From positions 4,313,001-4,377,000 of the forward strand of contig NZ_CP015136.1 in the NCBI RefSeq assembly GCF_001618865.1: a DNA stretch of 64,000 nt, in the 5' to 3' direction. Of this stretch, positions 23,880 through 33,053 are shown one piece after another (the first letter of the stretch is position 1; the number at the start of each line of letters is the position of its first letter). A program made the translations under genes and the position numbers. A model generated the notes under the pieces. The model did no database searches, had not been told where the DNA came from, and was given only the letters and a program-made list of their open reading frames with translations. Source of the DNA: Luteitalea pratensis. GTDB taxonomy: Bacteria > Acidobacteriota > Vicinamibacteria > Vicinamibacterales > Vicinamibacteraceae.

Positions 23880-23930
23880 GGGCACAGTTGCGGTCAGCCG
23901 CGACCAAGCGTAAGGTTTGGCTTGCGTCCC

Positions 23931-26120
23931 ATGACTCACCGCCCTCGGTCCGGCCTTCTGCTTGGACTCCTCCTCGCGTGGAGTGGGTCCGCGTCTGCTG
24001 TCCAGACACCTGCGCCGACGCCGACGCCGCAGGCGCCACAACCGGCGCCTCAGCCACCCGCGGAGGCTGAGGCGGACGAGAAGCAGAAATACGAGGAATC
24101 GATCGTGATCACCGCCTCGCGGACCGAGCAGATGCTCGTGAACGCGCCGGCCACGGTCACGCTGATCGACAGTCGCACGATCGAGAACTCGCCGGCCACC
24201 AATTACGCCGACCTGCTGCGAGCCGTCCCCGGCCTGAACGTCACGCAGACCTCGGCCCGCGACATCAACATCACCTCCCGCTCCGCGACCGGCACGCTCG
24301 CCACGTCGCAGCTTGCGCTGGTCGACGGCCGCAGCATCTACCTGGACTTCTTCGGCTTCGTGGCGTGGGACTTCCTGCCGATCGACCCGCAGGAGATCAA
24401 GCAGATCGAGGTCATTCGCGGCCCGGCCTCGGCGGTGTGGGGCGCCAACGCGCTGACCGGCGTGGTCAACATCATCACCAAGACCCCGCGCGAATCGCCG
24501 GGCTCGACATTCATTCTGGGCGGCGGCCTGTTCGGCCGCGACGCCATGGACGTGGAAAAAGGGAGCGGCGCCCTGTTCTCCGTGTCTGCCAGCCACGCCG
24601 CCGCCGTGAACGACCGTTGGGCGTACAAGGTCGCGACCGGGTACTACCAGCAGGACGCGATGGCGCGCCCGTCCGGGCCGATTCCGGACGGGGCCGGCCA
24701 GATGTATCCAGACTTCCCCAACAGCGGCACGCGACAGCCCAAGTTCGACGCGCGCCTCGACTACGACCATCCCGATGGCCGGCGGAAGGTCGTCATGCAG
24801 GGCGGCTTCGCCGGCACCGAGGGGATGATCCACTCGGGTATCGGCCCCTTCGACATCGACCGCGGGACGTACCTCGCCTACGGCAAGGTCAACTACACGC
24901 ACGGCGCGACGCGGCTGAACACGTTCGTCAATCGCCTCGACGGCAGCGCCACCAACCTGCTCGCGGTCGGCCTCGATGGCCTGCCGATTCCGTTCGTTTT
25001 CAAGACCACCACGTTCGACGTCGAGGCCGGGCACGTGGCCACATGGCGCAACCGCCACGTATTCAGCCTGGGCGGCAATTTCCGCTACAACGGCTTCGAC
25101 CTCTCGCTGGCACCGCTCGGGGACTCGCGCACGGAGGGTGGCGCGTACGGGCAGGACGAGATCTTCCTGTCGCCGATGTGGCGGTGGCTGATCGGCGGCC
25201 GGGTGGACGCGTTCTCCGTGCTCGACGGCCCGGTGTTCTCGCCGCGCACCACGCTGCTCTTCAAGCCGGACCCGGCGCACACGGTCCGTGTGTCGTACAA
25301 CCGCGCCTACCGTGCGCCGTCGCTGGTCAACAACTTCCTCGACACGACGATCCTCAGCCAGCTCGATCTCGGCGCGCTCAACCCGGCCCTCGCGGGACGC
25401 ACGTACGTCTTCCCCGTCGCTGCCGTCGGCAACCAGAACCTGACCGAGGAGTCACTCGACGCCTACGAGATCGGTTACTCGGGGGTGATCGCCAACCGCG
25501 CAACGGTAAGCGCCGCCTTCTACGTCAACGACAGCAAGAACTCGATTTTCTTCACGCAGGACGGCTCGTACCGCGCCGCCAATCCGCCACCGGGCTGGCC
25601 GCTGCCGCCGGCCGCGCTCGAGCTGATCTACCTGTCGGGCCGGTTCGGGCCGGGCAACGGATTGCCCGCGTCGTACACCTACCTGAACTTCGGCAAGGTG
25701 CGGCAGAAGGGGTTCGAACTCGGCGTCGACACCGATGTCTCGAAGGGACTCACCGCCTTTGCCAACTACTCGTTCCAGCCGACGCCGGAGCCGACCGGCT
25801 TCGACATCTCCGAGCTGAACCTGCCGCCCCGCCATCGAGTGAATCTCGGCGCCAACTACACCGGCGGTCGCGTGATCGGCAATCTCGCGATGAATTACGT
25901 CGGCGAGGCCTACTGGCAGGACGTCTCCAGTTACCAGGGAACCACCGAGGCATACACGCTGGTCAACGGTACGCTCGGTTACCGCTGGAACGACTCGTTC
26001 ACCACATCGCTGAAGGTGATCAACCTGTTCGACCAGGAGATTCAACAACACATCTTCGGTGACGTCATGCGTCGCCAGGTGGTACTGGAACTGCGCATGC
26101 GCGTCGGCACGAAGCCGTAG
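23931..26120 (+). CDS. TonB-dependent outer-membrane receptor
   Basis: This 729-residue protein imports a substrate across the outer membrane using TonB energy. The order is: signal peptide (about 1-25), a proline-rich stretch, a plausible TonB box EESIVITASR, the plug domain (LLRAVPGLNVTQTSARD, LALVDGRSIYLDFFG, QIEVIRGPASAVWGANALTGVVNIITKTPRE) and a 22-strand barrel with DAYEIGYSG and GLTAFANYSFQPTPEP. There is no STN or carboxypeptidase-like N-domain. The last strand ends ...RVGTKP and lacks the terminal aromatic residue common in barrels. The plug resembles siderophore/cobalamin receptors more than SusC types. The substrate is not predictable. Confidence 0.92.
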   Translation: MTHRPRSGLLLGLLLAWSGSASAVQTPAPTPTPQAPQPAPQPPAEAEADEKQKYEESIVITASRTEQMLVNAPATVTLIDSRTIENSPATNYADLLRAVPGLNVTQTSARDINITSRSATGTLATSQLALVDGRSIYLDFFGFVAWDFLPIDPQEIKQIEVIRGPASAVWGANALTGVVNIITKTPRESPGSTFILGGGLFGRDAMDVEKGSGALFSVSASHAAAVNDRWAYKVATGYYQQDAMARPSGPIPDGAGQMYPDFPNSGTRQPKFDARLDYDHPDGRRKVVMQGGFAGTEGMIHSGIGPFDIDRGTYLAYGKVNYTHGATRLNTFVNRLDGSATNLLAVGLDGLPIPFVFKTTTFDVEAGHVATWRNRHVFSLGGNFRYNGFDLSLAPLGDSRTEGGAYGQDEIFLSPMWRWLIGGRVDAFSVLDGPVFSPRTTLLFKPDPAHTVRVSYNRAYRAPSLVNNFLDTTILSQLDLGALNPALAGRTYVFPVAAVGNQNLTEESLDAYEIGYSGVIANRATVSAAFYVNDSKNSIFFTQDGSYRAANPPPGWPLPPAALELIYLSGRFGPGNGLPASYTYLNFGKVRQKGFELGVDTDVSKGLTAFANYSFQPTPEPTGFDISELNLPPRHRVNLGANYTGGRVIGNLAMNYVGEAYWQDVSSYQGTTEAYTLVNGTLGYRWNDSFTTSLKVINLFDQEIQQHIFGDVMRRQVVLELRMRVGTKP

Positions 26121-26208: not shown

Positions 26209-27405
26209 ATGTGTCGCGGGCGCTTCGCTGCCGCGAGTGCAGCACTCGCCACGCGCTTGCCCGACAGGTCATGGGCTGCGTCCGACCTCGGTGTGCCTCT
26301 TACCGTCGAGCGCCGCATGACCTGGGATCGCACGCGCGTCTATGGCAGCCACAGCAGCGCGGGCGTTGATGCACCAGCTCCGACGTGGCACTTCGCCGAG
26401 GGCGCCACGATAGGGGACATCCAGACGTTCTTCCTCTTGCAGAATCCCGGTGACGCCCCTGCCCATGTGACGATGCGTTACTGGCTCGCCGATGGCACGA
26501 CGGTGGCCCGGACGCACGTCGTGCCTCCTGCGTCCCGTCTGACCGTGTGGCCCAACCAGGAGGGGCATCCGCTCGACGCCGCGGAGTTTGCGACGACGAT
26601 CGAAACCGATCTGCCGGTCGTGGCCGAACGCGCGGTGTATCGCAACGCGCCCGGCGAGCTGTTCAGCGCCGGGTCTGTGGCCAGCGGCGTCGCGGTTCCC
26701 GACACCGCGTGGAACTTCGCCGAAGGTGCGACCGGCCCCTATTTCGACATGTTCCTGCTCCTGGCCAATCCAGGCGACGTCCCGGCGACCGCGCAGGTGC
26801 AGTTCCGGCGCGCCGGCGTACATTCTTCCCAAGACGCTGACCTCCAGCGGACGTACGTCATCGCGCCGCGGTCGCGGCGCACCATCTGGGTCGATCACGA
26901 GGACGCACGACTGACCGATGCAGCCGTGTCCAGCCTGGTGAACTCCGATGTGCCAATCGTCGCTGAGCGCGCGATGTGGTGGCCCGGTCCGACGGCAGCG
27001 ACCTGGCACGGGACACATGTCGAGACGGGGGCTCGGTCCAGCATGTCGTGGGCGGTCGCCGACGTCGAGGTCGGCTCGACTCCCGAGGTCGACACCTTCA
27101 TCTCTGTGAGCAGTCGATCGCTTCTGGGCGCGGGCCTGCGCATCACGCTGCGTTACGAGGATGGAACATCGTCCACACGGGATATCGGCGTCGCTGATCG
27201 GTTCACGCTGTGGCCACGGCACGACTTCCCCGAGTCAGTGGGCCGGCGCTTTGCCGCGACCATCGAATCGTTGGACGTGCTGCTGGGTGCGTCTCCCAGC
27301 CTCCCTCGAGGCCGGATCCCGATCGTCGTCGAGAAGGTCACCTACCGCGGGCATTTTGCGGCTGGCGCGGCTTCGCTAGCCTCGCGCTTGCCGGATCCGC
27401 CGTGA
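26209..27405 (+). CDS. Truncated fusion of secreted beta-sandwich repeat genes, probable pseudogene
   Basis: The 398-codon frame joins two pieces of one gene family. Its first residues, RGRFAAASAALATRLPD, match the C-terminus of the downstream paralogue (RGHFAAGGVTLATRLPDPP), and from VPLTVERRMTWDR onward it matches that paralogue's middle and C-terminal repeats. So the end of one copy is fused in frame to the middle of another. There is no signal peptide, whereas the full-length neighbour has one; the product would stay in the cytoplasm. The repeats read WHFAEGATIGDIQTFFLLQNPG and WNFAEGATGPYFDMFLLLANPG. The frame is still open, so expression cannot be excluded. Confidence 0.6.
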   Translation: MCRGRFAAASAALATRLPDRSWAASDLGVPLTVERRMTWDRTRVYGSHSSAGVDAPAPTWHFAEGATIGDIQTFFLLQNPGDAPAHVTMRYWLADGTTVARTHVVPPASRLTVWPNQEGHPLDAAEFATTIETDLPVVAERAVYRNAPGELFSAGSVASGVAVPDTAWNFAEGATGPYFDMFLLLANPGDVPATAQVQFRRAGVHSSQDADLQRTYVIAPRSRRTIWVDHEDARLTDAAVSSLVNSDVPIVAERAMWWPGPTAATWHGTHVETGARSSMSWAVADVEVGSTPEVDTFISVSSRSLLGAGLRITLRYEDGTSSTRDIGVADRFTLWPRHDFPESVGRRFAATIESLDVLLGASPSLPRGRIPIVVEKVTYRGHFAAGAASLASRLPDPP

Positions 27406-27484
27406 AGGGCGCCGAGCCCCGCAAAGCGGCGTCCTCCTACGAACGGCGAGCGCGCTCTCGCGTCGCAGGTCTACACCACCGCCG

Positions 27485-27517
27485 CTGGCGACGCGCCTGC
27501 CGGACCCGCCGCCGTAG
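27485..27517 (+). pseudogene. C-terminal scrap of another repeat paralogue
   Basis: LATRLPDPPP followed by TAG is encoded here, the same ending as the full gene (LATRLPDPP then TAG at 30370) and the fusion gene (LASRLPDPP). No upstream homology remains in the frame. The rest of 27406-27748 holds no gene; it includes a small AGACGC/GCGTCT hairpin near 27570. Confidence 0.5.
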
Positions 27518-27748
27518 CCGTGGTATAAGTCCGCCCGAGCCTCCCGACCTCGATCCGCTCACCCGGAAGACGCTGTGCGTCTCACTGTCGGCTGCAGGAT
27601 GGTGCGCCGCGGCTTCGTGTGGGCCCTGGGCCTTGCGGCGGCGCAGGCACCATCGATCACGCCGTTATCGCCGTGGCGGCCAACCCTGAGCCCTGGGGAC
27701 GGGCCTGGCGCGCTGCGGGCAATGGCAGCCGAACGAGTGGAGAACAAG

Positions 27749-30370
27749 ATGGCTCGCGTCCTGAACTCTTATCGCCGCGTGCTCGCCTACGGCTTCGTCC
27801 TCACCAGCGCGCTCACCGCCAGTCCCGCCTTGCTGCGGGCGCAGACCGCTGTCGTCGCCGAACCGGTCGCGGGGCTGGTCGATGCCCCCGAGGCGCACAT
27901 CACCCAGGTCACGCGAGATGGCGCACGCCTGGTCGCGACCTTGGCGCCGGGTGACGACAACCGGGTCGTGCTCGATACGCACACCGGCACCACCGTATTT
28001 GCAGACCCGGTTCGGAGGTACACCCTCTCCCCGGAAGGCTCCTACGTCGCCTGGTTCGACGGCGGGTTCTTTGGTGACATCTACCTTCGAAACCTGGCGA
28101 GCGGGGAGGAACGCCCGGCCTTCCGCAGCGGCCTGGGAACCTACGCAATCGTGCTCTCCGACGAAGGCACCAGGGCGGCGACCCTCGGCTCCTTCGCCTT
28201 GACACTCCTTCGGTCTTCGGCGGTAATCGCGGGAGCAGCCGGCCAGGCGATGACGACGATCGACACGCGATTGTGTCCGCCCCCAGGGATCAGCGGCACC
28301 TGTCTGGGTGGCCCCCTCGGCATCAGTGCCGACGGGCGCCACGTCGTGTACGGCGCGTACTATACGTATGGCGACGGCGGCGCAAGTCGCACTACCGTGA
28401 CGACTGCCGACCTCACCACTGGGCTCACGCAAGCGGTACCTGTGCAGCACCCGGATCTCGATGGGTCGGTCTCGGGCGAATTCGACCTCAGCGGCGATGG
28501 CAATTGGATCGGTGTCACGGCCCAGACGCGCGTCGGTCGCCATCCACGGGCGGCGCTGTTGGTCCGAGCCGGCGGACCGACGATGCTCGTCGCTCCGTCC
28601 CTCGGTGACACGTCCTTCATGGGTATCAGTGACAGCGGCCGCTTCGTGCTCGTCGCATCGCCTGCGAGCGTGTCCGGCGGGGAGCGCCTCCGCGTGGTCG
28701 ACCGAACCAGCGGCGTGCTGACGGAGGTGATCTACCAGTCTGTTGCGCACCAGGCCGACTACCGCCTCGAATCCGCGCACCTCAGCGGTGACGGGCGAAC
28801 CGTTGTCGGCACGTTGGTGCGCCGAACCTCCACCGATGCACCCCATCGGCGCACGTTCATCGCTCGTCTCGACAGCGACGGCGACGGACTGCACGACGGT
28901 TGGGAAACTGTGTTCGGTACCAATCCTGCCGATCCCGCCGATGCCGCACTCGATCCGGACCACGACGGCCGTACCAACGCACAAGAGAACGTCGACGGCA
29001 CCCATCCGAACGGAGTACCCGTCCGCTACTTCGCCGAAGGTGCCAACGGCACGTTCTTCGCGACGTCGCTGTCGCTGTTCAATCCATCGAACCAGGACGT
29101 GACGGCCAACGTACGCTTTCTCGGCCCGGATGGGGCTGCGGCCTCGATGCCCGTTGTCGTGCCGGCGGGTCGACCCGCGTATCTCGATGCCGATCAGGCC
29201 AACCTGCCCTTCACCGAGTTCTCGATCATCGTCGAGAGCGTCGTGCGACTCGTCGCCGAACGCCGCATGACATGGGACCGCACCGGGCAGTATGGCAGTC
29301 ACAGCGGCACGGGCGTGGCGGCCCCCTCGACGACGTGGCATTTCGCCGAAGGCGCCACCATCGCGGGGCTGCAGACCTTCTTCCTGCTGCAGAACCCTGG
29401 TGATGTTGCTGCGACGGCGACCCTGCGCTTCCTGCTGGCGACCGGCAATGTACAGGAGCGCACGCACACGGTCCCCGCGGGCTCGCGCCTCACCGTCTGG
29501 GCCAACCAGGAGGGCTCGCCCCTCGACGCCGCGGAGTTCTCGACGACAGTCGTTTCCGATCGGCCGTTGGTGGCCGAGCGTGCCATGTACCGCGATGCAC
29601 CGGGCGAGACGTTCGCGGCGGGCTCGGCTGCCGCCGGGGTCACGATGCCGGCGACGGCGTGGTTCTTCGCCGAAGGCGCGACGGGGGCCTTCTTCGACAC
29701 CTATTTGCTCCTGTCCAACCCCAACGACACACCGGCCACCGTGAACGTGGAGTTCGTCCGTTCTCATGACTTCGGGGACATCAACACGGCCTGGCCCATC
29801 CAGAAGGCCTATGTTCTGGCGCCCCACAGTCGTCGCACCATCTGGGTCGTACAGGAAGATGAGGGCCTGCGAGACACGCAGGTGGGTGCCCGAATGGCGT
29901 CGGACCTGCCCATCGTCGCGGAACGCACCATGTGGTGGCCCGGGCCGACCTCCGCCACCTGGCGCGAGAATGACGCCGAGTCCGGCTCGCCCGAGAGCGG
30001 CCAACTGTGGGCCGTCACCGACGTGCAGGCCGATGCCGACGACGGCGGCTGGGACACGTTCGTCCTTGTCGCCACGACCGAGCAGTATCTGTCGCACGTC
30101 CGGATCCGGGTTGCGTGTGTTGACGGCACGACTGTGACTCGCGACAAGAGCCTGTCGGTCAATCGCACGACCCTGTGGATGCGTTACGAATTCCCGGAGA
30201 TCGTCGGCAGCCGCTGCGCGGCCACCGTGGAGTCGCTGCCCACCCGCATCACGTTGTCGCCGACCGTGCCGCTGTACCGCACGCCGCTTGTCGTCGAAAA
30301 GGCAATATATCGCGGGCACTTCGCCGCCGGTGGAGTGACGCTGGCGACCCGCCTGCCAGACCCGCCCTAG
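27749..30370 (+). CDS. Secreted multidomain protein: beta-propeller-like N-half, calcium-type repeats, beta-sandwich repeats
   Basis: This 873-residue protein has no assigned function. The ATG at 27749 has GGAG 7 nt upstream and gives a signal peptide ending near RAQTA. Residues about 40-410 look like a WD40/TolB-like propeller (SPEGSYVAWFDGG, SADGRHVVYGA, SGDGNWIGVTAQT). SDGDGLHDGWETVFGTNP and DPDHDGRTNAQE are thrombospondin type 3-like calcium-binding loops at about 420-460. After these come four or five repeats with FAEGA....FFLLLNP, SRRTIWV and PIVAER motifs. The domain order suggests a cell-surface or extracellular protein. Three paralogue fragments lie nearby. Confidence 0.75.
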   Translation: MARVLNSYRRVLAYGFVLTSALTASPALLRAQTAVVAEPVAGLVDAPEAHITQVTRDGARLVATLAPGDDNRVVLDTHTGTTVFADPVRRYTLSPEGSYVAWFDGGFFGDIYLRNLASGEERPAFRSGLGTYAIVLSDEGTRAATLGSFALTLLRSSAVIAGAAGQAMTTIDTRLCPPPGISGTCLGGPLGISADGRHVVYGAYYTYGDGGASRTTVTTADLTTGLTQAVPVQHPDLDGSVSGEFDLSGDGNWIGVTAQTRVGRHPRAALLVRAGGPTMLVAPSLGDTSFMGISDSGRFVLVASPASVSGGERLRVVDRTSGVLTEVIYQSVAHQADYRLESAHLSGDGRTVVGTLVRRTSTDAPHRRTFIARLDSDGDGLHDGWETVFGTNPADPADAALDPDHDGRTNAQENVDGTHPNGVPVRYFAEGANGTFFATSLSLFNPSNQDVTANVRFLGPDGAAASMPVVVPAGRPAYLDADQANLPFTEFSIIVESVVRLVAERRMTWDRTGQYGSHSGTGVAAPSTTWHFAEGATIAGLQTFFLLQNPGDVAATATLRFLLATGNVQERTHTVPAGSRLTVWANQEGSPLDAAEFSTTVVSDRPLVAERAMYRDAPGETFAAGSAAAGVTMPATAWFFAEGATGAFFDTYLLLSNPNDTPATVNVEFVRSHDFGDINTAWPIQKAYVLAPHSRRTIWVVQEDEGLRDTQVGARMASDLPIVAERTMWWPGPTSATWRENDAESGSPESGQLWAVTDVQADADDGGWDTFVLVATTEQYLSHVRIRVACVDGTTVTRDKSLSVNRTTLWMRYEFPEIVGSRCAATVESLPTRITLSPTVPLYRTPLVVEKAIYRGHFAAGGVTLATRLPDPP

Positions 30371-30459: not shown

Positions 30460-31566
30460 GTGTCCGCATCGCCCCTCCCTTCACCTCATCCCCACGAGTT
30501 ACCCCGAACGCCGCCGGCCGAGTGGTCCCGCCGGGGATGGGTGCGCCTGCTGGCGCTGCTGGTCGTCGGGGCGACGTTGCCGTTGCTGTGGCATCCGGTG
30601 ATGGCGCGACTCTCGACGCGCGCAGTGCAACCGAGCTACCTGCCAGCGCTCGAGGCGGCGCGGGAGCGCATCGCGTTCCGACCGGGCCCGATCGAGGACC
30701 TGCACCGGCTCAAGCCGTCCTACGTCTTCATCGGTGACTCGATGCTCGGGACCCGCATCGATGCGGGTTACCTCGCGGGCCTGCTGGGCAAGGACGTCGC
30801 GATGCTGGCACGCGCCGGAACCGGACCCGCCTACTGGTACCTGAGCTTCAAGAACTACCTGATCGCCAGTGGCGAACGGCCCCGCGTCACGTTCTTCTTC
30901 TTCCGTGACCTGAACATGACCGATCCGCTGTTCCGCCTCACGGGGCCGTTTCGCTGGTCGCTCGACGAGGTGGCCGGTCCCGAGGAGCCGGCGCTGAACG
31001 ACGTCATCGCGGCACGCGTGCGAGGGCCGTGGTTCCGCGTCCACAACACGGTCAATACGGTTTACGGGATCGATCGCGCCAACGCGTGGGTCGAGCGGCA
31101 GCTATATGACTGGCCCACCCGCCTGTGGACACGTGACGAGCCGTCGCGGCGCGCCTGGCTGGACAAGATGAACTTCGAGATCATGGGCCTGGACCGCTTG
31201 CGGCCCATGGCGGCCGCCGACCTGCAGGCGGCCGAGGACGCCGAGGCCGACTTCGATCGCTTCGTGCCGCGATCGGTCCTGCCGTTGATCATCGATCTCG
31301 CGAAGCAGCACGACATGAAGGTGTGCTTCGTGCGCGTGCAGCGGCGTCCCGTCGGCAACAAGGCACCGGAGCAGTCGCCGCGGATGCAGGCGTACGTGCG
31401 CGAGTTCCGCGCCTACGTCGAGCAGCAGGGCATGTACTTCCACGACGACACGGGCGATCCGATGCAGACCCTCGCCATGTACGAGGACGGCGATCACATC
31501 GCGCGTGCGCATCGGCAACGCTACACGCGCCAGTTCCGCGCCAACCTCAACCAGCTGCTCCGATGA
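30460..31566 (+). CDS. SGNH/GDSL-fold membrane-anchored protein, MBOAT partner
   Basis: This 368-residue protein begins with GTG 30460 and has a hydrophobic segment at about 25-45, leaving the rest outside the cytoplasmic membrane. FIGDSMLGTRI is the SGNH block I serine motif and MYEDGDHIARAH near the C-terminus fits the block V Asp-His pair. The AlgJ/AlgX and DltD groups of this fold cooperate with MBOAT acyltransferases to acetylate exported glycans. The MBOAT gene follows with an ATGA overlap, so the pair probably O-acetylates a polysaccharide or cell-surface polymer. No glycan synthesis genes lie alongside, so the acceptor is unknown. Confidence 0.7.
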   Translation: MSASPLPSPHPHELPRTPPAEWSRRGWVRLLALLVVGATLPLLWHPVMARLSTRAVQPSYLPALEAARERIAFRPGPIEDLHRLKPSYVFIGDSMLGTRIDAGYLAGLLGKDVAMLARAGTGPAYWYLSFKNYLIASGERPRVTFFFFRDLNMTDPLFRLTGPFRWSLDEVAGPEEPALNDVIAARVRGPWFRVHNTVNTVYGIDRANAWVERQLYDWPTRLWTRDEPSRRAWLDKMNFEIMGLDRLRPMAAADLQAAEDAEADFDRFVPRSVLPLIIDLAKQHDMKVCFVRVQRRPVGNKAPEQSPRMQAYVREFRAYVEQQGMYFHDDTGDPMQTLAMYEDGDHIARAHRQRYTRQFRANLNQLLR

Positions 31567-33053
31567 CGTTCCACAGCCTGGACTACGTCGTCTTCTTCCT
31601 GGTCGTGTCCGCCGTCTACTGGCGGCTGTCACACCACTGGCAGAACCGCTTCCTGCTCGGCGCCAGCTACCTGTTCTACGGATGGTTCGAGCCATGGTTC
31701 TGCCTGCTGCTCGCGGGCACCACGCTGGTGGACTGGTTCGCGGGCCTGAAGATGGACCCCGATCCCGCCGTCGACGACGCGACGTACGCACGCCCGGACG
31801 CACAGGTGCGCGCGCGACGGAGATGGTGGCTGGTGCTCAGCCTGATCTCGAACCTGTCGGTGCTGGGGTTCTTCAAGTACTTCAACTTCTTCGTCGACAG
31901 TGCCCAGGCCGGACTTGCGGCGCTGGGCCTGAACACATCCCTGCCGGTGCTCCAGGTGGTCCTGCCGGTCGGGATCTCCTTCTACACGTTCCAGAGCCTG
32001 TCCTACACCATCGACGTGTACCGCGGGCGGTTGCGCGCCTGTCGATCGCTGCTCGACTTCGCGCTGTTCGTGGCCTTCTTCCCGCAGCTCGTGGCCGGCC
32101 CGATCGAACGCGCCGAGGCGCTGGTGCCACGCGTGCTGTCATCGCGCGTGTTCAACCTGGTGGTGGCGCGCGACGCCCTGGTACTGATGGCCTGGGGCTT
32201 CTTCAAGAAGCTCGTCATCGCCGACAACGTCGGCGTCATCGCCAACCGGGTCTTCTCGATGAAGGATCCGGGATTCGAGATGCTGTGGGCAGGCGTCTTT
32301 GCGTTCGGGGTCCAGATCTACGCGGATTTCTCGGCGTACACCGACATCGCGCGCGGCACCGCACGATGGCTGGGGTTCGACCTGATGAAGAACTTCGATC
32401 ACCCCTACGTCGCGGTGTCGCCGTCGGACTTCTGGCGCCGCTGGCACATCTCGCTGTCATCCTGGTTTCGCGATTACCTCTATATCCCGCTCGGGGGTTC
32501 CCGTCATGGACTGCCGCGCACGTTGCTGAACGTGATGATCACGTTCGTGATCTCCGGCCTCTGGCATGGCGCCGCCTGGAACTTCGTGCTCTGGGGCACG
32601 TTCCATGGGCTGCTGCTGGTCGGGGAGCGGACATGGCGGGCGCTGCGCGGGGTCAGTCGCCACGGCCGGCATCGCCTGCCGCTGTGGCGCGCCCTGCCGC
32701 AGTGGGCGGCAATGTTCGTGCTGGTGCACATCGGCTGGTTGATGTTCCGCGAGGGCGACGCCGCCAGGCTGTGGCGCGACGTGATGCTGGTGCCCGGCAC
32801 CGCGCCGCTCGCCGAGCGGCAGGCGGGGCTGTACCTGTTCCTGATCTCGTTCACGCTCTCGCTGCCGTTGTGGGCCCACAGCCTGTGGACCGTGTGGCAC
32901 GGACGGTCGTACTCGGATCGGCCGGCGGTTCGTGAGATCGAAGTCCCGGCGACCACGGTCGCGTGGCAGGCGCTGGCAATCGGCATCATGTTCGCCACGA
33001 TCCTGGTGCTGCGCAGCCGGACCTCGCTCGACTTCATCTACTTCGCGTTCTAG
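31563..33053 (+). CDS. MBOAT-family O-acyltransferase
   Basis: This 496-residue membrane protein belongs to the AlgI/DltB group of membrane-bound O-acyltransferases, which pass acyl groups across the membrane to an exported acceptor. It has about ten membrane segments. LPVGISFYTFQSLSYTIDVY, FFPQLVAGPIERA, PSDFWRRWHISLSSWFRDYLYIPLGGSR and the catalytic histidine in ISGLWHGAAWNFVLWG are the family's landmarks (each named, not quoted in full beyond the motif). The start codon overlaps the stop of the SGNH gene (ATGA), so the two are coupled. The stop at 33053 is followed by an inverted heptad element. Confidence 0.92.
   Translation: MTFHSLDYVVFFLVVSAVYWRLSHHWQNRFLLGASYLFYGWFEPWFCLLLAGTTLVDWFAGLKMDPDPAVDDATYARPDAQVRARRRWWLVLSLISNLSVLGFFKYFNFFVDSAQAGLAALGLNTSLPVLQVVLPVGISFYTFQSLSYTIDVYRGRLRACRSLLDFALFVAFFPQLVAGPIERAEALVPRVLSSRVFNLVVARDALVLMAWGFFKKLVIADNVGVIANRVFSMKDPGFEMLWAGVFAFGVQIYADFSAYTDIARGTARWLGFDLMKNFDHPYVAVSPSDFWRRWHISLSSWFRDYLYIPLGGSRHGLPRTLLNVMITFVISGLWHGAAWNFVLWGTFHGLLLVGERTWRALRGVSRHGRHRLPLWRALPQWAAMFVLVHIGWLMFREGDAARLWRDVMLVPGTAPLAERQAGLYLFLISFTLSLPLWAHSLWTVWHGRSYSDRPAVREIEVPATTVAWQALAIGIMFATILVLRSRTSLDFIYFAF

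Follow-up and report, generated by a model that had tools for sequence, protein, structure and literature searches.

Between a gene for a TonB-dependent receptor and an SGNH/MBOAT-like gene pair, a 64,000-nucleotide stretch of the Luteitalea pratensis genome (contig NZ_CP015136.1, positions 4,313,001 to 4,377,000 of the forward strand; hereafter, the window) holds four related pieces in a row, all on the + strand: a short C-terminal relic, a truncated gene (copy A), a second C-terminal relic, and an intact gene (copy B). The site is probably what remains of an old tandem array of secreted-protein genes that was lost piecemeal, with partial gene conversion in one relative (G001) and with a single live gene, carrying a putative glycan-binding module, left in the window genome. 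The eroding tandem array is real, and arrays of this general kind are known. What sets the case apart is the tail of these proteins, a four-repeat module of the Anabaena sensory rhodopsin transducer homology (ASRAH) type that is attached to many unrelated predicted secreted proteins, and for which a binding function may be proposed.

The anatomy of the site is best read against its intact gene. Copy B (27749..30370) has 873 codons and matches the Pfam family DUF5719 (1.3e-14); ATG 27749, which is followed by a signal peptide (here and below judged by eye), is a more likely start than GTG 27575, with which the longest frame begins. Relic 1 (26212..26265; 18 codons, CRGRFAAASAALATRLPD) comes from the end of a copy now lost and shares copy A's reading frame, as evidenced by alignment and by a BLASTP piece (12/19). 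Copy A (26293..27405; DUF5719 7.1e-07) consists of the end of repeat 1 and repeats 2-4; the frame that contains it, which starts at 26209, is 57% identical (215/377 amino acids, residues 508-882) to the intact frame read from 27722. Relic 2 (27485..27517), LATRLPDPPP followed by a stop, lies within the 5′ spacer of the intact gene, in a reading frame that differs from that of copy A, and is identical to positions 30339-30366 at 26/28 nucleotides (nt). In line with the homology between copies A and B, two stretches of 297 and 197 nt recur directly 2950 nt further on, at 71-72% identity.

Could pieces as short as the relics have arisen by chance? Their local alignment scores were set beside those from dinucleotide shuffles (1000) of the spacers in which they lie: when the intact gene's 3′ end was the target, relic 1 (41) and relic 2 (46) each had scores equalled by 0/1000 shuffles, ruling out a chance origin. 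Against other tails, shuffles scored as high as relic 1 in 5/1000 (copy A), 0/1000 (copy 1 of the G001 tandem pair), and 21/1000 (copy 2 of that pair) cases, and as high as relic 2 in 0/1000, 19/1000, and 633/1000 cases, respectively. The C-terminal signatures that a first-pass annotation, made from the DNA letters, had pointed out are all in place: LATRLPD in 26212-26265, LASRLPDPP at the end of the frame that closes at 27405, LATRLPDPPP-stop at 27485-27517, and LATRLPDPP at the end of the gene at 30370. Its view of the frame at 26209 as a fusion of one copy's end with another's middle also holds, the middle homology beginning at about 26293, ~27 nt past relic 1.

If copy A is truncated, is it also degenerate? 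It lacks ~500 of copy B's codons on the 5′ side, including the signal peptide, the N-terminal domain, and most of repeat 1; its frame offers just one ATG upstream, 26209, which falls within the fusion and after which no signal peptide is apparent. What survives, however, appears to be under coding constraint: the frame is open over 398 codons, its G+C content at third codon positions is 0.79 (0.81 in copy B), and the differences between copies A and B fall as 113/97/200 on codon positions 1/2/3, of 369 each. In a tree of 28 modules (four site modules from the window genome and G001, and 24 others), the branch from the common node is 0.36 for copy A vs 0.60 for copy B. The word “decaying,” first applied to this cluster, thus fits the pieces lost by truncation but not the surviving frame. 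The open frame, the third-position excess, and the short branch would also suit a working shorter gene, with three repeats translated from ATG 26209, perhaps jointly with the TonB gene; this is unlikely, given the missing signal peptide, the broken repeat 1, and a start codon inside the relic fusion, and the constraint may predate the truncation. Over residues 531-800 (from here on, ranges are numbered on copy B), the copies agree at 38/93 silent sites. These sites look saturated, so the duplication is old, and a recent duplication in the window genome is ruled out.

The same site was followed in four other genomes of the genus (G001-G004, one genome per species), next to the window genome (G000, a single contig of 7,480,314 bp). 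The order parE-TonB-[site]-SGNH-MBOAT-sucA is kept in G001, G002, and G004, and SGNH-MBOAT-sucA is kept in G003, in which the contig ends 426 bases before the relic described here. Within this shared context the contents vary: two intact genes of 884 and 885 codons stand in tandem in G001; in G003 a 54-codon C-terminal relic precedes SGNH (tblastn E 4e-16), agreeing with copy B at 35/52 residues, with copy A at 27/52, and with G001 copies 1 and 2 at 25/51 and 26/51; G004 has about 28 mid-module codons fused to a tail, LATRLPDPPG; and no relic was detected in the gap of G002. The first-pass annotation had held that identical breakpoints in relatives would make the arrangement old and stable; they were sought in these four genomes and not found. 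Because the remains differ in extent among genomes, they are read most simply as those of an old array lost piecemeal. Four further genomes (G005, G006, G008, and G011) are uninformative as to an empty site: the stretches around their TonB gene, which in G005 extends 1.6 kb past it, contain neither the module nor the other flank genes. Across its five genomes, the site records a tandem array being homogenised in one lineage and disappearing from others.

The module's presence at many unlinked sites of the genome, and a copy A assignable to neither G001 copy, would also be expected if the pieces had arrived separately, as independent insertions of a shuffled module into a place where no tandem array had been. 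This is extremely improbable: the four site modules of G000 and G001 are monophyletic (support 100/99) and branch separately from the tree's 24 other modules, G001 has two full tandem copies at the site, and the relic of G003 is nearest to copy B. The clade, the intact pair of G001, and three relatives with different remains or none detected bear out the sequence of events first suggested for this locus, tandem duplication followed by loss of pieces; the unequal recombination proposed along with it is one candidate for the deletion process. Copy B and G001 copy 2 look like orthologs, as judged by their residues: the N-terminal part of copy B matches copy 2 with E of about 1e-48 and copy 1 with 2e-11, and over residues 801-850 copy B is identical to copy 2 at 33/50 positions vs 28/50 for copy 1. 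A module at 323-1618 of a 19,258-base contig (L124) also groups with the window-site clade (100/99); it starts near the contig end, elsewhere in its genome.

The two copies of G001 are unevenly alike. Over residues 531-800, they share 265/271 amino acids and 173/180 four-fold silent sites; elsewhere silent identity falls to 23/45 (residues 365-495), 3/14 (495-530), and 25/63 (the N-terminal domain), and the N-terminal domains are 29% identical. Up to 76 informative sites in a row are identical, whereas the maximum in 10,000 permutations is 30; near the 3′ end, similarity drops in one patch (43/60 nt). Selection at the protein level alone is ruled out as the cause of the identical modules by the 173/180 silent sites. 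The pattern is that of gene conversion, which has homogenised most of the two C-terminal modules and bypassed the N-terminal domains. A second tandem pair of G001, with TIG domains, is also homogenised (silent identity 260/283 in the module, 79/160 in the N-terminal part). Older conversion in the SBBP-propeller pairs of G001 and G004 was considered and left uncounted: the hint lies in amino acids (80% vs 71%), and silent sites look saturated.

Does conversion serve variation? The first-pass annotation had proposed a reservoir for varying the surface protein; in such a system truncated copies would be silent donors that recombine into the expressed one. Truncated copies beside an intact gene are the layout of silent-cassette systems such as vls of Borrelia, and the site does resemble them in having a truncated copy A, with no visible signal peptide, beside intact copy B; conversion between tandem copies does occur in G001. 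The products of conversion point the other way. In the window genome, the single genome of its species here, copies A and B show no mosaicism and no converted tract (the best 60-nt bin has 47/60 identities and the longest exact match is 17 nt). In G001, exchange has evened out the module and left the variable N-terminal domain untouched, and relics of 10 and 18 codons offer little variation to donate. Where it is seen, conversion renders neighbouring modules alike and supplies no variation to the divergent N-terminal part; the reservoir is unsupported, and we consider it very unlikely. The array also resembles tandem gene families that undergo concerted evolution by gene conversion, in which adjacent copies are nearly identical in one block and divergent elsewhere; here, homogenisation is limited to the C-terminal module and seen in 2/3 G001 pairs tested. 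The open literature on Acidobacteria, gene conversion, and tandem secreted proteins was searched and holds none on such a case, judged by title.

What is the homogenised part? The C-terminal module of copy B (29030..30367) was modelled with AlphaFold2 from an alignment of 55 module sequences (copy B and 54 others) with high scores (predicted local distance difference test, pLDDT, 95.3; predicted TM-score 0.93) and folds into four beta-sandwich repeats (approximately 29030-29317, 29318-29647, 29648-29983, and 29984-30367; limits other than those of repeat 2 are set by eye from the model and the alignment). Predicted repeat 2 superimposes on Thermotoga TM1070 (1nc7_A) with Z 16.5 and a root-mean-square deviation of 2.1 over 107 residues and on entries for the Anabaena sensory rhodopsin transducer (ASRT) with Z 12.8-13.1 (2iia, 13.1), vs 6.5 for the next unrelated row; rows at Z 6.5 or less probably reflect the resemblance common to beta-sandwiches. 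Foldseek gives 1nc7 and 2ii8 a probability of 1.00; several other rows precede 1nc7 by E-value, but their TM-scores are near 0.1. When the module profile was run against solved structures, 1nc7 (E 0.0035), 2iia (0.0057), and 2ii7 (0.0091) ranked first, at borderline significance. The Pfam family ASRT matches 7/55 modules at E 0.01 (best 9.3e-07), copies A and B being unmatched.

Conserved residues tell a similar story. ASRAH domains (PMC2739507), which are predicted to bind sugars or small molecules, carry a W where strand 1 begins and a nearly absolute N at the end of strand 2. In the 55 modules, W103, W211, and W327 (taken as belonging to repeats 2, 3, and 4) are invariant, repeat 1 having no W (Y in copy B); N122 and N230 are also invariant, and N18 and N349 are conserved at 90% or more, with T in repeat 4 of copy B. 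The consensus of repeat 3 at the place of the ASRT signature is F-D-L-F-x-L-x-A-N-P, and the H and C ligand residues of the ASRT type (SHEshChhN, strand 2) were not seen by eye in repeats 2-4. On the predicted fold and the motif, the module is filed under the ASRAH superfamily, outside its ASRT-like subfamily. De Souza, Iyer and Aravind (2009; PMC2739507), who define the superfamily, describe two other ASRAH families, both secreted and occurring as dyads or tetrads; four domains per chain, as here, are reported there for the amidase-linked secreted versions. The proteins here differ from these in cargo, which consists of many unrelated domains and no amidase, and in that the module is mostly C-terminal.

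These repeats match the Pfam family DUF5719 (PF18986), whose gathering cut-off of 26.2 bits is exceeded by both copy A (29.1 bits) and copy B (54.5 bits); 36/55 aligned modules match it at E 0.01. The best stretches span positions 48-107 and 39-91 of the 319 in the profile: about 50-60 positions are covered, so the match falls short of the full DUF5719 architecture. NCBIfam gave sub-threshold matches only. The open literature was searched and yielded no paper on DUF5719; for ASRAH, one of the papers listed deals with the domain. Through the structural match, repeats of a DUF5719-like domain of unknown function are linked to a fold that has been solved and for which sugar binding has been proposed.

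The module is not confined to this site. There are 50 matches to it in the window genome, and 23 fetched stretches of that genome contain 27 further module open reading frames (ORFs) of 150 codons or more; in 19/27, all matches counted, the module ends within 15 residues of the C-terminus. Under a stricter domain threshold, at which weak matches to the last repeat are lost, 12/27 are C-terminal, 5 N-terminal, and 10 other. One of the 19 (L112; G000 C1:3271886-3274306), a PD40-propeller protein, has its module cut after about 278 of 446 positions; it is possibly a further relic, as are two short module fragments at C1:3266075-3266515 and C1:1625865-1626104. The N-terminal parts and proteins scanned with Pfam have matches to subtilases, a matrixin-like peptidase, BACON, TIG, FG-GAP, several propellers, a sugar dehydrogenase, and fn3; among the 20 sequences scanned, two (L106 and L114) match no family and one (L096) has sub-threshold matches only. 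Near the window's genus, the module is common, being found in 12/40 genomes including its own in a search with whole copy B; across a phylum sample it is rare (4/149 genomes including its own, two of the four partial). A tblastn search of 72,556 plasmid records with the module returned no match, and a search for related loci with the whole intact protein returned no relative. In this little-studied group of soil bacteria, the ASRAH fold comes in sets of four that follow many unrelated domains.

Placement at the end of unrelated cargo is also what a dedicated C-terminal export or sorting signal would produce, as in type IX secretion or PEP-CTERM. Besides the 19/27 ORFs above, 51/61 loci from other genomes have a VE..Y-type motif near the stop (the last motif within 25 residues of the stop codon; three loci ran off the contig and seven are without it; of 77 such loci, 61 were examined and 53 kept by length in alignment A2). 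The C-terminal domain of type IX secretion and PEP-CTERM are found only at the C-terminus of their cargo, however, and five proteins of the window genome have the module first and TIG after it; in three of the five there are GDSL hydrolase matches as well, one of which is sub-threshold. These proteins lie in two clusters, at G000 C1:3770131-3775327 (L083) and 3842123-3851481 (L084); G002 has a pair (L095) similar to them. At about 440 residues in four domains, the module is also longer than such sorting signals usually are. The N-terminal placements make a strict sorting signal a weaker candidate than a shared surface-binding module, and we regard it as improbable; a shared module that may bind the surface is the simplest reading of the wider family. 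If the binding role is true, it would give a testable function to a sizeable group of predicted secreted proteins. A bolder version, which we offer tentatively and think rather doubtful, is that Luteitalea and its closest kin use the four-repeat ASRAH module as a general means of surface retention: it would dock dozens of unrelated secreted proteins on an envelope glycan, and its DNA would be a recombination substrate through which neighbouring genes are both homogenised and deleted, one cargo replacing another, or being lost, on a shared anchor.

The cargo of copy B is less clear than its tail. Copy B is laid out as a signal peptide, an N-terminal domain, a TSP3-like linker (TSP3_bac 1.1e-4, under its cut-off), and the module. 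The N-terminal domain has S.DG-like patterns resembling propeller blades and sub-threshold Pfam propeller matches, and is possibly propeller-like; a phmmer search of this part against solved structures found no match. The domain itself (27749-28900) has a match in 2/7 family genomes, including its own, at 35% identity; the flank genes of the genus are 79-94% identical, indicating unusually fast evolution of the domain.

How could the site have come about? A full gene encodes a signal peptide, then a fast-evolving N-terminal domain (which may be a beta-propeller), a TSP3-like linker, and four repeats of the ASRAH kind, and the simplest reading puts a tandem array of such genes in the common ancestor of the genus. 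Different pieces were then deleted in each lineage, probably through recombination or slippage both within copies and between them, leaving the window genome with the two relics, the truncated copy A, and the intact copy B; in G001 gene conversion keeps the modules alike as the N-terminal domains drift apart. Presumably only copy B yields a working protein in the window genome; this protein is predicted to be secreted, and its module may bind a glycan of the envelope or the surroundings, holding the variable N-terminal cargo at the cell surface.

Several observations weigh against parts of this account. The left flank of the G003 site is unseen owing to the contig end, and in the flank-gene tree, which places G003 (represented by two of five genes) outside the other four genomes (ultrafast bootstrap 78 for the four, 100 for the genus), the forks within the genus are weak (66, 54, 78). 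Copy A is no nearer to G001 copy 1 (24/49) than to copy 2 (25/49) over residues 801-850 and is near neither, and its pairing with copy 1 by this unconverted patch was dropped. Homogenisation is not universal: a third G001 pair tested has a silent identity of 112/183 and the TIG pair of G004 one of 133/241, and orthologs in G005 and G006 (81%, 75%) are closer than neighbours (48%). The deletion mechanism is a presumed one; 8/27 ORFs do not end with the module; a single-sequence model of the N-terminal part of copy B has a pLDDT of 39.5; and the ligand, export, and location of the site proteins are predictions.

The flanks that frame the site are conserved genes. On the left, the TonB-dependent receptor (23922..26120, +) matches Pfam TonB_dep_Rec_b-barrel (3.2e-37) and Plug (2.7e-18) and occupies the same position in G001, G002, and G004. 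On the right are an SGNH-like gene, from about 30460, and an MBOAT-like gene (together 30460..33053, +). The SGNH-like gene has no Pfam match; both names are ones we assume from sequence features, and the order of the two is one known from polysaccharide O-acetylation. The pair stays beside the site, in the same order, in all four other genomes of the genus.

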